From: Alphaproteobacteria bacterium
Lineage (GTDB): Bacteria > Pseudomonadota > Alphaproteobacteria > SHVZ01
Length of the DNA: 38,473 nucleotides
Assembly: GCA_016869375.1 (NCBI GenBank)
Contig: VGEH01000027.1
Location: 1 to 38,473 of the forward strand
Direction: 5' to 3'
The position numbers and the translations under genes are program-made. Positions 2,151 to 32,792 of the stretch are shown here, piece after piece (position 1 is the stretch's first letter; each line of letters starts with the position of its first letter). Below the pieces are notes generated by a model. That model was given only the letters and a program-made list of their open reading frames with translations. It was not told the origin of the DNA and ran no database searches.

Positions 2151-2529
2151 CGGCGACATCGTCGTCGACGCATCTGTCATCCTGGCGCTACTTCAAGGCG
2201 AGCCTTTCGAGGCAAGCTCCGAGCTGATCGTCGATGCGTACATCAGCGCGGTGAACCTTTCGGAAGTCCTCACCAAGCTTCGGTCTGGCGGCGCGACCGA
2301 TACTGATGCGATAGAGGGCACGAAAGCGCTCGGTCTTCGTGTTATCGCCTTTGGCGAGCCACATGCGGAGGTCGCGGCCAAGCTTTCGCAGTTCACTCGA
2401 CGGGCCGGCCTCTCGTTCGGAGACCGTGCGTGCCTCGCAACAGCCGCTCTGCTTGGCGCGACGGCGCTTACGGCCGATCGAGCCTGGGCGAAGCTCGATA
2501 TCCCGACGAAGGTAATGCTGATCCGCTAG
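2143..2529 (+). CDS. vapC: PIN-domain ribonuclease toxin (VapC-type)
   Basis: The 128-residue PIN-domain protein carries the acidic catalytic set. The first Asp is in IVVDASVILALL, the Glu in NLSEVLTKL, and the later Asps in FGDRACLATA and LTADRAW. Such toxins cleave RNA, often tRNA or rRNA, when freed from the antitoxin. The start is GTG at 2143, inside the end of the antitoxin gene. The longer ORF-track start would add residues encoded within the antitoxin and lacking similarity to the fold. The stop abuts the stop of the convergent amidase gene with no gap. Confidence 0.85.
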   Translation: MSDGDIVVDASVILALLQGEPFEASSELIVDAYISAVNLSEVLTKLRSGGATDTDAIEGTKALGLRVIAFGEPHAEVAAKLSQFTRRAGLSFGDRACLATAALLGATALTADRAWAKLDIPTKVMLIR

Positions 2530-3867
2530 CTATCTCTTCTTCCCGAACTCCGAGACCCAGGCCGCGACGCCGGAGAGAGCGCGCTCGCAGTTGGGGTAGC
2601 CCAGGAGCTGGAGTCCAAGCGGGAGACCGTCGACCTTCAGCAGCGGCAGCGACAGCGCCGGGTTGCGCAGCATCGAGGCCGGCATGTTGAAGACGGCGTT
2701 GCCGGTCGAGCCGATGCCGAGCGGCGCCGGCCCGGCCGAGCCGAGCGTGATGCAGGCATCGACATCGCCGGCCAGCCCCATCAGCACGTCGCGGGCATAG
2801 TCGCGCTTCTTCAGCAGCGCCACATAGTCGTCGACGGTCATGTTGTCGCGGCCCTTGAGCACCGCCTTGCGGAGACCCTCGCTCAAGCGGCTGCCTTCGC
2901 GAAGCTCGAGATCGGCGAAGGGCCAGATCTTCTCCCAGTCGTTGATGCCGAGCGACAGGTCGGAGGCACCGGCGATCGCGTCCTCGAGCTGGGCGACGCG
3001 CCTCGAGCCCTTGCGGTCGATCAGCGTGACGCCGGCCCTCTCCAGCTTCTTGAGGAACGCGGCGAGCGCCTTCTTGGCATCGGCATCGGCGACGGCCCAG
3101 CCATCGGTCTCCAGCACAGCGAGCACGTCGGGGCGGCGCGGCGCCGCCGGCTCGGCGCCGCCAGCGAAGGGGAGGAAACCGGGATCGCCACCGACGCGCG
3201 CGGCGATCTCATGCGCCACCGCCCAGGCATCCTCGAGCGTGTGCGAGAGCGTGCCGATGCAGTTCTGGCTGAACTGGTCGCCGATGCCGCCGCGGTTGAG
3301 CGCACCGAAGGTCGGCTTGAAGCCGACGATGCCGCAGAAACTGGCAGGCCTCAGGACCGAGCCGCCGACCTGGGTCCCGATCGCGACCGGCACCATGCCG
3401 GCGGCAACGGCAGCGGCGGATCCGGAAGAGGAGCCGCCAGGCGTGCGCTTCGGATCGTGCGGGTTGGTCGTGGGGCCGGGAGGCGCGCCGGCGAACTCGG
3501 TCGTCACCGCCTTGCCGACGATCACCGCGCCGGCCCGGCGCAGCGCGAAGGCGCAGGCGGAATCGCGGCCACCATTCCAGCCCTTGAAGATCGGGCTGCC
3601 GAACTCGGTCGGCATGTCGACGGTCTCGATGATGTCCTTGATCGCGATCGGCAGCCCGTCGATCGAGGAAAGCGGCTTCTTCGACTTCCACCGCTTGTCC
3701 GAGGCATCCGCCGCCTTGCGCGCGCCGTCGAGGTCGAGAGTGACGAAGGCGCGGACCGTGGGTTCACGCTTCTCGATCTGCCTGATGCAGGCTTCGAGAA
3801 ACTTGCGCGGGGTCAGCGTGCCGGCGCGAAACTCGGCGCGGGCCGAGGCGAAGTCGAGCTTGGCCAT
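2530..3867 (-). CDS. Amidase-signature-family amidase
   Basis: This 445-residue amidase-signature enzyme hydrolyses a C-N amide bond. The Ser-cisSer-Lys triad is visible: Lys77 in GLPIAIKDIIET, Ser147 in PGGSSSGSAAA and nucleophile Ser170 in GTQVGGSVLRPASF. The glycine- and serine-rich signature lies at residues 144-180. The start is the ATG at 3867 (MAKLDFASAR); the longer ORF-track form overlaps the upstream MFS gene. That carrier ends only 16 bases upstream on the same strand, so the two form an operon and the carrier may import the amide substrate. GatA is unlikely because gatB and gatC are absent. The substrate is unknown. Confidence 0.88.
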   Translation of the reverse strand: MAKLDFASARAEFRAGTLTPRKFLEACIRQIEKREPTVRAFVTLDLDGARKAADASDKRWKSKKPLSSIDGLPIAIKDIIETVDMPTEFGSPIFKGWNGGRDSACAFALRRAGAVIVGKAVTTEFAGAPPGPTTNPHDPKRTPGGSSSGSAAAVAAGMVPVAIGTQVGGSVLRPASFCGIVGFKPTFGALNRGGIGDQFSQNCIGTLSHTLEDAWAVAHEIAARVGGDPGFLPFAGGAEPAAPRRPDVLAVLETDGWAVADADAKKALAAFLKKLERAGVTLIDRKGSRRVAQLEDAIAGASDLSLGINDWEKIWPFADLELREGSRLSEGLRKAVLKGRDNMTVDDYVALLKKRDYARDVLMGLAGDVDACITLGSAGPAPLGIGSTGNAVFNMPASMLRNPALSLPLLKVDGLPLGLQLLGYPNCERALSGVAAWVSEFGKKR

Positions 3868-3883
3868 TACAGAGATCCTCTCG

Positions 3884-5098
3884 TCAGGCGGGAGCGAAGC
3901 GGCGACGGCCGGCGAACAGAAGCCAGAGAGCGATGCCGGCATTGACCATGTTCCAGGCGATGCCGTTCAGGAAGGCAATTCGGTAAGAGCCGGTCCAGTC
4001 GAAGATCGCGCCCGAGACCCAGCCGCCTGCGGCCATGCCGATGATCGTCGCCATCATGACGATGCCGACACGCGTTCCGGCCTCGGAGGCCGGCATGTAC
4101 TCGCGGATGATGATCGCGTAGCTCGGCACGATGCCGCCCTGGGCGAGACCGAACAGCGCCGAGACGACGTAGAGCGACATCAGCCCATCGAAAGGCAGGT
4201 AGAGGCACAATGTCGCCATCTGAAGGGTCGAGCCGAGCAGCAGCGTGCGTACGCCGCCGATACGATCGGAGATCCAGCCCGAGGCGAGCCGGCTGACAAC
4301 GCCGAAGCCCAGCATGATCGACAGCATCTCGGCGCCGCGCGCGACGCCGTAACCGAGGTCGCCGCAATAGGCGACGATATGGACCTGAGGCATCGCCATG
4401 GCGAGGCAGCAGGTGATGCCGGCGATGATCAGCAGTGTCAGGAGCGCATTGGTCGAGATCGGCAGGCGCCCGAGCGTGCCGCCGCCATTCGCCGCGTGGT
4501 CGTGACGGGGCGACGGGCGCCTGAGCACGAGCGCGAGCGGCAGCATGGTGACGATGCAGGTGAGCCCGATCGCGATGTAGGTATATCGCCAGCCGATGGT
4601 GTCGATCAGGTTCTGGATCACCGGCGGCCACACGGTTCCCGCGGCATAGTTGCCGCTGGCGGCGATGCCGACGGCGAGGCCCCGGCGGCGATCGAACCAG
4701 TGCGAGATGTCGGCGACCAGCGGGCTGAACACGGCCGCGCAGCCGAAGAAGCCGATCAGCAGGCCCTGCATCAGCGCGAACAGCCAGATGTTCGGCGACA
4801 GGCCGGCACCGATGTATCCCAGCGCCAGCGAGACCGCGCTGAGCGCGACCGGAGTCACAATGCCGAAGCGGTCGCCGAGCTTGCCCATGAACACGCCGCC
4901 GACGGCGAAGCCGATCATGCCGGCGGTGTAGGGGATCGAGGCGGCAGCACGGTCCACGCCGAACTCCGCCTGCACGGAAGGCAGGACGACGACGACCGAC
5001 CACATGCCGACGCCGCCGATGGTGGCGAGCAGGAGCGAGGCGGCGAGCCGAGCCCAGGCATAGGGCGACTCGACGCCGGAAACGGAAGCGGGTGACAC
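3884..5098 (-). CDS. Major facilitator superfamily transporter
   Basis: The 404-residue membrane protein has about 12 hydrophobic segments in two six-helix halves. The MFS loop 2-3 signature GGVFMGKLGDRFG and its echo in the second half (ASGWISDRIGGVRT) are present. The start chosen is GTG at 5098 (VSPASVSGVESPYAW), preceded by a GAAAGG ribosome-binding site; the ORF-track form adds a non-hydrophobic Arg/Pro-rich leader that runs through the divergent promoter. It lies upstream of, and close to, the amidase. Its general look is that of anion/monocarboxylate MFS carriers, but no substrate can be named. Confidence 0.85.
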   Translation of the reverse strand: MSPASVSGVESPYAWARLAASLLLATIGGVGMWSVVVVLPSVQAEFGVDRAAASIPYTAGMIGFAVGGVFMGKLGDRFGIVTPVALSAVSLALGYIGAGLSPNIWLFALMQGLLIGFFGCAAVFSPLVADISHWFDRRRGLAVGIAASGNYAAGTVWPPVIQNLIDTIGWRYTYIAIGLTCIVTMLPLALVLRRPSPRHDHAANGGGTLGRLPISTNALLTLLIIAGITCCLAMAMPQVHIVAYCGDLGYGVARGAEMLSIMLGFGVVSRLASGWISDRIGGVRTLLLGSTLQMATLCLYLPFDGLMSLYVVSALFGLAQGGIVPSYAIIIREYMPASEAGTRVGIVMMATIIGMAAGGWVSGAIFDWTGSYRIAFLNGIAWNMVNAGIALWLLFAGRRRFAPA

Positions 5099-6646: not shown

Positions 6647-7920
6647 TGCTGGGCTATTTCGGCGTCTGGCTGGCCCTCATCGCGCTGGCGATGCCGGTCG
6701 CCTTCTCGCTCGCCTTCATGGGCATCGCCTGGCTGTTCTTCGAGGGCCAGTCGATCACTCAGGCCGCGCAGCGGCTGATCGGCGGCGTCGACTCCTTCCC
6801 GCTGCTCGCCGTTCCCTGCTTCGTGCTCGCCGGCATCGCGATGAACTCGGGCGGCGTCAGCGTCCGCATCTACGACTTCGCCCGCGCGCTGGTCGGGCAC
6901 CTGACCGGCGGCCTCGGCCACGTCAACGTCATGGGCAGCGTGATCTTCTCCGGCATGTCGGGCTCGGCGATCGCGGACGCCGGCGGGCTCGGCATCCTCG
7001 AAGTCAAGGCGATGAAGGAGGATGGCTACAAGGCCTCCTTCGCCGGCGCGCTAACCTGCGCGTCGTGCATCATCGGACCGCTGATCCCGCCCTCGATCCC
7101 GATGGTGCTCTACGGCGTCATCGCCAATGTCTCGGTCGGCGCGCTGTTCCTTGCCGGCGTCGTGCCGGGGTTACTGACCGCGCTGATGCTGATGATCCAT
7201 GTCTATTTCTATGCCCGGAAGCGACCCGAGCTGGCGAGGCACCGGCGCGCCAGCCTGAAGGAGCTGTGGCTCGCCTTCCGCCGCGCCTTCCTCGCGCTGG
7301 TCACCCCGGTGATCATCATGGGCGGCATCTTCGGGGGAATCTTCACGCCTACCGAAGCGGCAGCCGTCGCCGCGATCTATTCGCTGGCGCTCGGCCTCTT
7401 CGTCTATGGCGACCTGAAGTTCTCGGATCTGCCGCGCATCTTCAAGGACGCGGTCCACACCTCGGCCGTGGTCGGCTTCATCGTCGCCGGCGCCAGCCTG
7501 TTCGGCTGGGTGCTGGCACGCGAACGCGTGCCCCAGGCCATTGCCGAGGCCTTCCTCGGATTCTCGACCGAGCCGCTGGTCATCCTGCTCATCATCAACG
7601 TCGTGATGCTGGTCCTCGGATGCTTCATGGAGGGCATCGCCATCATGATCCTGATGGTCCCGGTGTTCCTGCCGGTGATCCAGCAGGTCGGCATCGACCC
7701 GGTCCATTTCGGCGTCGTCGTCACGATGAACCTGATGATCGGCATCCTGACGCCGCCCTTCGGCGTGGCACTCTTCACGGTCGCCAAGGTCGGACGCATC
7801 CCGTTCGAGGAGCTGGCGCGCGAGATCCTGCCGTTCCTGCCCGGCCTGGTCCTCGTGCTGCTCCTGCTGACCTTCTTCCCCAGCCTCTCGATGTTCCTGC
7901 CGCGGCTGGTCTACGGGTGA
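6646..7920 (+). CDS. dctM: TRAP transporter large permease subunit (DctM)
   Basis: The 424-residue, very hydrophobic protein with about 12 membrane segments is the ion-coupled transport subunit of a TRAP system. Typical DctM stretches are visible: the SGMSGSAIADAGGLG loop, CIIGPLIPPSIPMVLYG, GGIFTPTEAAAVAAIYS and ILTPPFGVALF. The start is ATG 6646, overlapping the DctQ stop by one base. A substrate-binding protein (DctP) would be expected next to it but is missing; the next gene is on the opposite strand. The only DctP in the window is at 11749-12726 on the minus strand. Confidence 0.92.
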   Translation: MLGYFGVWLALIALAMPVAFSLAFMGIAWLFFEGQSITQAAQRLIGGVDSFPLLAVPCFVLAGIAMNSGGVSVRIYDFARALVGHLTGGLGHVNVMGSVIFSGMSGSAIADAGGLGILEVKAMKEDGYKASFAGALTCASCIIGPLIPPSIPMVLYGVIANVSVGALFLAGVVPGLLTALMLMIHVYFYARKRPELARHRRASLKELWLAFRRAFLALVTPVIIMGGIFGGIFTPTEAAAVAAIYSLALGLFVYGDLKFSDLPRIFKDAVHTSAVVGFIVAGASLFGWVLARERVPQAIAEAFLGFSTEPLVILLIINVVMLVLGCFMEGIAIMILMVPVFLPVIQQVGIDPVHFGVVVTMNLMIGILTPPFGVALFTVAKVGRIPFEELAREILPFLPGLVLVLLLLTFFPSLSMFLPRLVYG

Positions 7921-10612: not shown

Positions 10613-11314
10613 ATGACCCTGACCGCCGCCGATCTCAAGAAGCTTGCCGCCTACGATACCCCGACTATCTGCAACGCGCTGGAGATCGTCGCGCCGGAGC
10701 GGCGGGCCCATGGCTTCAACCGCAAGCCGCTGGTCTGCCCCTTTCCGAAGCTGAAGCCGATCGTCGGATATGCCCGGACCGGAACTATCCGCTCGCGCGA
10801 GCCGAGCTCGCTGCCCAAGGCCGAGCAGCGCGCGATGCGCGCCGCCTATTATCGATCGATCGCGGCCGAACCGCGGCCGTCGATCTCCGTTCTCCAGGAT
10901 CTCGACGGACCGGATGCCGGCTTCGGCGCCTTCTGGGGCGAGGTACAGTCGACCATCCATAAGGGTCTCGGTTGCCTCGGCGTCATCACCGATGGCTGCA
11001 TCCGTGACATCGAGATGTGGGCGCCCGGCTTCCAGGCGCTGGCCGGCTCGATCATGCCGAGCCACGCGCATGTCCACCTGGTCGGCATCGGCGAGACGGT
11101 GAGCATCGCCGGCATGATCGTGCGGCCGGACGACCTGCTGCACGCCGATCATCACGGCGCGGTGGTGATTCCGATCGAGTTCGCGAAGAAGGTGCCGGCG
11201 GCGTGCGAGCTGCTGACGCGCAAGGAGTCGGTGATCCTCAATGCCGCACGTGCGAAGGGCTTCAATGCCGACAAGCTGATGAAGGCGATCGCCGAGGCTG
11301 ACGAGATCCACTGA
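10613..11314 (+). CDS. RraA-family protein (HMG/CHA aldolase or oxaloacetate decarboxylase-like)
   Basis: The 233-residue protein has the RraA/HMG-aldolase fold signature. KGLGCLGVITDGCIRD (about residues 117-132) contains the substrate- and metal-binding Arg131-Asp132 pair, and it is preceded by a GE(V)-type loop at 109-111. Members are class II pyruvate aldolases or decarboxylases, while Escherichia coli RraA is an RNase E inhibitor. The long N-terminal extension and intact active site favour an enzyme. There is no partner gene on this strand. A weak hairpin and T-run follow the stop. Confidence 0.8.
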   Translation: MTLTAADLKKLAAYDTPTICNALEIVAPERRAHGFNRKPLVCPFPKLKPIVGYARTGTIRSREPSSLPKAEQRAMRAAYYRSIAAEPRPSISVLQDLDGPDAGFGAFWGEVQSTIHKGLGCLGVITDGCIRDIEMWAPGFQALAGSIMPSHAHVHLVGIGETVSIAGMIVRPDDLLHADHHGAVVIPIEFAKKVPAACELLTRKESVILNAARAKGFNADKLMKAIAEADEIH

Positions 11315-30783: not shown

Positions 30784-31938
30784 TCAGGGGCGCTGCACGA
30801 TCCGCGAGGCCGGGATCGCCAGGGTGGCCGTCGTCCCCTCGCCTTCGCGGCTGTCGATGTGAAGGCTGCCGCCGTTGAGTTCGGCCAGCGACCGGCTGAG
30901 CCATAGACCCAGACCCGCCCCGCGACCGCCGCGCGCTTGCTCGGCGGTCGCTCGCTGGAAGGGCTCGAAGATCGTCGTCATGCGATCGGTGGGAATGCCG
31001 AAGCCGGTATCGGCGACGACGACGATCAAGTTGCCGTCCCGGTCGCCTTCCACCCGAACCCAGACACGGTGCCCCGCCGGCGTGAACTTCGCCGAGTTGG
31101 AAAGCAGGTTGAGCAGGATCTGGCGGATCGACCTCCGGTCCACATGGATGATCCAGGACTCGTCGACCAGCGCCGCCTCGATCGTCGGGCCTAAGCCCTG
31201 GGCATAGCCGCGGGCCATGCGCACCGCCTCGTCGACGACCTCGGCGAGGACGACGTTCTCCGGCGTCTGCTGGAACTGGCCGAGCTCGATCTTCGACATG
31301 TCGAGCAGGTCGTTGATGATGCCGAGCAGATGCCGTCCGCTGACGGCGATGTCGCGAACGTATCCCCGATAATTGTCGTGGCCGAGCGGACCGAACAGCT
31401 GCTCGCCCATGATCTCGGAGAAACCCAGGATGGCATTCAGCGGCGTCCGAAGCTCATGGCTCATATTGGCAAGGAAGCGCGTCTTGGCGAGATCGGCGGC
31501 GGCGGCGATGTCGCGCGCCTGACGCCAGCGCGCCGAATCCGCTTCGGCATCGTGCTGAGGCGTCACGTCGCGCGTGGTCCCACGATGGCCGAGGAACTGG
31601 CCCTCCTCGCCGTAGAAGGGCCGGCCGCTGATGCGGAGATGGCGGATCCGCCCATCCGCCGCGGTCTGTACCACCGGCACGTCCATGAATGGCTCGCGTT
31701 TGTCGAGCACCTCGAGGAACTGGCGCTTCGCCGCCGGGTCCATGCCCTGCCCGGCATGCGTATCGAACAGCCTGAGGCCGACATAGGCCTCCGGCGGGAG
31801 TCCCGTCATGGCGCGAACGCCATCCGATACGAAGGTGTAGCGAAGCTCGCGGTCGAGCTCCCATAGCCAGTGCGAGGAGGATTCGGCGAAGTCGCGGAAC
31901 CGCTGCTCGCTTTCGCGCAGGCGGGCCTGCGTATCCAT
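30784..31938 (-). CDS. PAS histidine kinase, C-terminal part of a split gene
   Basis: The 384-residue ORF has a PAS domain (about 8-130), HisKA with His161 in ANMSHELRTPLNAILGFSEIM, and an ATPase domain with LLNLLSNSAKFTPAG, DTGFGI and GRGAGLGLWLSRSL. The FGPLGHDNYRGYVRDI stretch is DivJ/PleC-like. There are no membrane segments. Its first eight residues (MDTQARLR) are also the last eight of the upstream ORF, owing to a 26-bp tandem duplication. The ATG overlaps the upstream stop by one base (TGATG), so it may still be translated by coupling. Removing one repeat copy fuses both ORFs in frame. Confidence 0.85.
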   Translation of the reverse strand: MDTQARLRESEQRFRDFAESSSHWLWELDRELRYTFVSDGVRAMTGLPPEAYVGLRLFDTHAGQGMDPAAKRQFLEVLDKREPFMDVPVVQTAADGRIRHLRISGRPFYGEEGQFLGHRGTTRDVTPQHDAEADSARWRQARDIAAAADLAKTRFLANMSHELRTPLNAILGFSEIMGEQLFGPLGHDNYRGYVRDIAVSGRHLLGIINDLLDMSKIELGQFQQTPENVVLAEVVDEAVRMARGYAQGLGPTIEAALVDESWIIHVDRRSIRQILLNLLSNSAKFTPAGHRVWVRVEGDRDGNLIVVVADTGFGIPTDRMTTIFEPFQRATAEQARGGRGAGLGLWLSRSLAELNGGSLHIDSREGEGTTATLAIPASRIVQRP

Positions 31939-31966
31939 CAGCGCAGGCGGGCCTGCGTATCCATCA
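31915..31966. repeat. Exact 26-bp tandem duplication splitting a histidine kinase gene
   Basis: Two identical 26-base copies, 31915-31940 and 31941-31966, are followed by four more matching bases (GCGC). The length is not a multiple of three, so the second copy shifts the frame and creates a TGA stop at 31938-31940. GCGC at the unit border is the kind of microhomology expected for slipped replication. An assembly error remains possible. Confidence 0.95.
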
Positions 31967-32792
31967 GCGCCCGCTCGGCCTCCTTGAGCGGCGAGATGTC
32001 CATGCCGACGGTGAGCACGCTCGACGGCGGCCCCGCGCCGTCGGTCAGCGGCACCTTCTTCACCAGGAAGGTGCGGATGCTGCCATCGGCGATCGGCATC
32101 ACACGCTGGAAGGGCTGGCTTGCGACGCCCGAGGCCAGCACCGCCTCGTCCTGCGACCGCCCGACGGCAGCGACCTGCTCGCCGAGGAAGGCGCCGCTGA
32201 CGAGGCCGGTAGCCACGCCCGGCGTCGAGCCCAGGATCACGCGCGCGTAGTAGTCGTTCATCATCACGTATCGGGACAGCGCGTCCTTCACCATGATGAC
32301 GGCCGGCACCGTGTCGATGATGTCGCGCAGGAAACGCTCGGCATTGACGATCTGGGTGATCTCTCGGCCCGTGCCGCGGTATCCGGCGAACTCGCCCTTC
32401 GCATCGAAGATCGGCTTGGCGTTGATGCTGAAGTGCCGGAGACGTCCGCCCGCGTCCTTCCGCGCGAAGCGGAAGTCGACGATCGGCCTCCTGGCCGCCA
32501 GATCGCCGAGATGGTTCGACCAGGCTTCGTGGCTGACTTCCTCCAGGCCTTCCCTGACAGGGGTGCGGCCGAGGAGAACTGTCGGGTCCTCGCCGGTGCG
32601 CGCCGACGAGCCCGAGGAGATCAGCGAGAATCTGAGATCCCGGTCGAGCTCATAGAACCAGTCCGACGAGACCTCGGCAAAGTCGAGAAGGCGACGCTCC
32701 TCATCGGTCAGCGCCGGACGCCGGGCATCGCCGCCGGAGCGGGGCCCTTTCTGGTCGGTCGGCTCGGACACGGGACGACCTTCGTCCGTCAT
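31938..32792 (-). CDS. Tandem PAS-domain sensor protein, N-terminal part of the split kinase gene
   Basis: The 284-residue ORF has two PAS domains: about residues 33-150, with SDWFYELDRDLRFSLIS and YRGTGREITQIVN, and about 150-275, ending SVLTVGMDISPLKEAERAL. PAS domains sense redox, light or ligands. There is no output domain, because a 26-bp duplication brings in a stop right after MDTQARLR. With one repeat copy it would continue into the kinase at 30784-31938 as a protein of about 660 residues (PAS-PAS-PAS-HisKA-ATPase). A perfect CtrA-type box lies 44-59 bases upstream of its start codon. Confidence 0.8.
   Translation of the reverse strand: MTDEGRPVSEPTDQKGPRSGGDARRPALTDEERRLLDFAEVSSDWFYELDRDLRFSLISSGSSARTGEDPTVLLGRTPVREGLEEVSHEAWSNHLGDLAARRPIVDFRFARKDAGGRLRHFSINAKPIFDAKGEFAGYRGTGREITQIVNAERFLRDIIDTVPAVIMVKDALSRYVMMNDYYARVILGSTPGVATGLVSGAFLGEQVAAVGRSQDEAVLASGVASQPFQRVMPIADGSIRTFLVKKVPLTDGAGPPSSVLTVGMDISPLKEAERALMDTQARLR

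Follow-up and report, generated by a model that had tools for sequence, protein, structure and literature searches.

A 26-bp tandem duplication divides a three-PAS histidine kinase gene into two overlapping reading frames in a draft alphaproteobacterial genome

Introduction

Two adjoining reading frames on the minus strand of an alphaproteobacterial contig together carry the domains of one sensor histidine kinase. Are they two genes, or one gene broken by a short duplication? If it is broken, is the break an ordinary mutation, a reversible switch or an error of assembly? The locus lies in a stretch of 38,473 nucleotides that we analyzed as a whole and call the window (contig VGEH01000027.1). 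A first-pass annotation, made from the letters of the window, had drawn attention to the duplication and had offered all three of these readings. We found no published description of this locus in the literature. The genome to which the window belongs is a draft of 278 contigs with 89.6% completeness.

Results

The features on which the argument turns are as follows.

30784..31938, minus strand: ORF2, the C-terminal kinase piece, 384 aa, with the third PAS, HisKA and HATPase_c
31938..32792, minus strand: ORF1, the N-terminal kinase piece, 284 aa, with two PAS domains (PAS_4, two stretches)
31915..31940, copy 1 as read on the plus strand, gene strand minus: exact 26-bp match; the downstream copy for the gene, holding the ORF2 start codon
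31941..31966, copy 2 as read on the plus strand, gene strand minus: exact 26-bp match; the upstream copy for the gene, in the ORF1 frame
31967..31970, no strand: GCGC carry-over, the end of the array
31916..31931, no strand: perfect inverted repeat within the unit (CGCAGGC and GCCTGCG around GG), occurring a second time at 31942-31957

The annotation had described two exact 26-base copies with a 4-base GCGC carry-over, and in the assembled sequence both this repeat and the frame split that it causes are confirmed. The repeat unit, GCGCAGGCGGGCCTGCGTATCCATCA, begins at 31915 and again at 31941 (TRF: period 26, 100% matches). With the GCGC that runs to 31970, the array spans 56 bp (31915-31970) and gives a self-identity run of 30 bases at period 26. 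Reduced to one copy, the unit would have GCGC at either end, a microhomology of 4 bp. The inverted repeat within the unit has 7-bp arms and a 2-base loop; on its own it carries little weight, since comparable repeats occur about 1.8 times per kb across the window. In GC-rich coding DNA, chance often yields a microhomology of 4 bp or a hairpin of 7 bp. We claim no special DNA structure for the array, because the folded DNA was barely more stable than its shuffles (z = -1.25). When the one-copy 30-mer was searched for, its matches in the window's own genome were the two overlapping ones of this array only, and in viral contigs it had none.

A unit of 26 bp is not divisible by three, and the duplication therefore shifts the frame of the kinase gene. 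ORF1 ends in EAERALMDTQARLR (...ALMDTQARLR), followed by a TGA stop, while ORF2 begins with MDTQARLRESEQ and reads MDTQARLRESEQRF. The two share a single base, the A in a TGATG that is at once the stop of ORF1 and the start of ORF2, just as had been noted. We removed one copy in silico and obtained a single reading of 660 aa, the length that the annotation had estimated and also the length, from the first Met, of the intact ortholog in congener G001. Pfam matches above the curated cut-offs placed two PAS domains in ORF1 and a PAS, HisKA and HATPase_c in ORF2. The full set of sensor histidine kinase domains is therefore present but spread over two ORFs, with the frame shift in the PAS2-PAS3 linker, and the description of the gene as a PAS-PAS-PAS histidine kinase holds.

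The annotation also called the two ORFs coupled, and here only part of the claim stands. The TGATG stop/start overlap is present. However, the bases just before the ORF2 ATG contain no Shine-Dalgarno-like GGAG or AGGA motif, and the arrangement is absent from the relatives, in which the gene is one frame. We regard translational coupling of ORF1 and ORF2 as a candidate that is only possible. An Rfam search of the region returned no RNA element, and promoter and terminator scans of the gene's strand gave nothing useful. Readings that invoked a mobile element or an RNA element had zero support and were dropped.

Is the split older than the species? The comparison set was a family of seven genomes, including the window's own, of which five are congeners (G001-G005). 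A kinase ortholog is present in all five, in the same gene neighborhood. The order cysNC-cysD-hsp20-DUF1150-kinase-crcB-hydantoinase-like gene-matE is common to the genomes, as far as each contig extends, and this shared order identifies the kinases as orthologs. Protein identity to the three-PAS kinases of G001, G002 and G005 is about 73-87% per piece. In these three genomes, and in the N-terminal contig of G004, the linker aligns with one gap of exactly 26 nucleotides and an open frame, so that each of these four congeners, whose alignments span the whole linker, has a copy number of one. The G004 kinase is itself broken over two contigs, about 50-150 bases from the duplication site. G003 likewise has one frame and no duplication, but its middle PAS (PAS2) is missing. 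The inverted repeat of the unit is not conserved in the congeners.

Relatives thus run one frame across the linker, which makes the split the derived state. The two copies are 100% identical, whereas dS between the window and the congeners is about 0.55-0.83 (dN is well below dS for both pieces), and this points to a recent event. Together these comparisons support a frame split that is derived and young compared with the divergence of the species. The comparison with relatives that had been proposed, run here on congeners, thus favored the suggested recent mutation: the five genomes lack the repeat and have one frame wherever it can be read. The same result refutes the alternative of an ancient fission.

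The orthologs differ from one another in other ways as well. In G003 (L025, contig C9, about 2336-3958), an exact deletion has taken out PAS2 and kept the frame. Its joint, GREVTALVDTQARLRES, falls within the PAS-PAS linker that holds the duplication in the window, which was thus a breakpoint in G003 as well. The sequence across the joint, GCGCTGGTCGAC, is similar to the PAS1-PAS2 linker of the relatives and also to their PAS2-PAS3 linker. The G005 kinase (L152, contig C32, about 7301-7304) has a frame break of its own, of one base, close to the C-terminal end of the HATPase domain, by decay or assembly error. All told, the kinase gene is altered somehow in three of the six genomes of the genus, which is consistent with loose constraint on this sensor or, in part, with draft-assembly noise. 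The hydantoinase/amidase-like gene beside crcB also varies: it forms two tandem stretches in G005 (L152, 9613-12220) and G004 (L030, 1813-4420), and one stretch only in G002 and the window.

Perhaps such duplications are common in this genome, or perhaps its assembly is rich in frame breaks? We sampled 2.04 Mb of it, made up of the window and 100 stretches of 20 kb, and scanned for exact tandem duplications with units above the mononucleotide and very short-unit range. Apart from the 26-bp case, no exact tandem duplication in the sample reached a unit length of 16 bp, and the next longest units, 15 and 12 bp, were both multiples of three. In 0.33 Mb of congener sequence scanned as a control, there was one 18-bp case. 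As the sole tandem unit of its class in the sample, the 26-bp duplication is beyond chance. For frame breaks, we used as queries the 118 congener ORFs that were 150 residues or longer and were covered over at least 75% of their length in the own-genome sample. The kinase alone was clearly split (seen from two queries). Elsewhere in the window's own genome, L096 may contain another frame change when compared with a G002 ORF, at about 10869-10925, in a 52-residue weak stretch of a variable region. With one clear split among 118 conserved queries, the assembly is not generally ridden with frameshifts; this reduces the probability of a local assembly error, though not to zero.

Discussion

We conclude that what the annotation saw was correct and that its explanation is ordinary. 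The locus probably records a single, isolated event in the strain that was sequenced: a short tandem duplication that disconnected PAS1 and PAS2 from the kinase and that could revert. An exact head-to-tail 26-bp pair followed by GCGC, set against a single ancestral copy in the relatives, is what such an event leaves behind. GCGC at both ends of the single-copy state is what slipped mispairing or a microhomology-templated duplication would usually yield. The stretch between the GCGC ends would have been duplicated by slipped replication or by microhomology-templated repair, perhaps aided by the hairpin-forming CGCAGGCGGGCCTGCG. The resulting frame shift in the PAS2-PAS3 linker would release a free two-PAS protein (ORF1). 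ORF2, having no Shine-Dalgarno-like motif before its ATG, would depend on re-initiation at TGATG and would at best be a weakly re-initiated soluble PAS-kinase that keeps its catalytic parts. The signal input of PAS1 and PAS2 would be lost, and the simplest reading is that sensor function is lost or weakened in this strain. The 30-bp direct repeat could in principle revert by simple deletion, a plausible route given that RecA-independent slippage between tandem repeats is described as well recognized (PMC3519483).

Could the second copy instead have been made by the assembler? A contig-joining error that kept a 26/30-bp overlap twice would leave a true gene of one frame and about 660 residues. 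One copy and one frame in all congeners would agree with this, as would a fragmented draft genome, a direct repeat with a hairpin that could impede assembly, and the nearby contig break in G004, which suggests that the region may assemble badly. Against it, the sampled genome holds no second such duplication and is not broadly enriched in frame breaks, and an array of 56 bp should pose no difficulty to assemblers whose final k-mers exceed 56. On balance, we hold an assembly error to be unlikely, though a serious contender.

The remaining readings grant the duplication a function, and we consider each of them very improbable. Gain and loss of the 26-bp copy might switch the gene from one fused three-PAS kinase to two proteins and back: frames are open in both states, an ATG at the stop offers ORF2 a start, and slippage of the RecA-independent kind can delete a 30-bp direct repeat with a hairpin. 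The contingency switch suggested by the annotation nonetheless found no positive evidence. The two-copy state occurs in none of the five congeners, and the inverted repeat is not kept there; the 2.04-Mb sample holds no class of similar hypermutable repeats (units of at least 16 bp), and ORF2 has no ribosome-binding motif. It is equally hard to credit a broader version, in which sensing would be reversibly uncoupled from kinase output by hairpin-assisted slippage, the linker being a breakpoint that recurs in the genus. Alternatively, ORF2 might be an adaptive or tolerated soluble PAS-kinase, freed from PAS1 and PAS2 like other short cytoplasmic PAS-HisKA kinases. All kinase domains are kept in ORF2, and the in-frame loss of PAS2 at the same linker in G003 implies that the N-terminal part tolerates remodeling. 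Yet G003 remains one fused frame, the C-terminal break in G005 suggests occasional loss as much as remodeling, and the duplication is too young for selection to show. Such a separation of domains therefore has very little probability in our estimation.

If the duplication is real, it offers a clean case of one short duplication separating a sensor from its kinase, and an example of mutational breakage at PAS linkers, in an alphaproteobacterial genus that is known from draft genomes of metagenomic origin. Beyond this it teaches little, and its practical use is as a warning for annotation: the two predicted proteins are best taken as one broken gene.

Three known systems help to place the locus. 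In phase-variable (contingency) loci with coding tandem repeats, as here, copy number determines the reading frame; in contrast, the present locus has two copies only, in one genome, with no repeat in relatives and no variation seen. The three-PAS cytoplasmic histidine kinases of G001, G002 and G005 share its gene position and domains, but theirs is one open frame over the linker with a single 26-bp copy. A close precedent is microhomology-mediated tandem duplication (MTD), which puts a premature stop into ssp1 of S. pombe and is described as reversible (reviewed in PMC13207564). Here the organism is a bacterium and the mechanism of origin is read from the end product. In both cases, a short segment between a few identical bases is exactly duplicated, a premature stop results, and one deletion could undo it.
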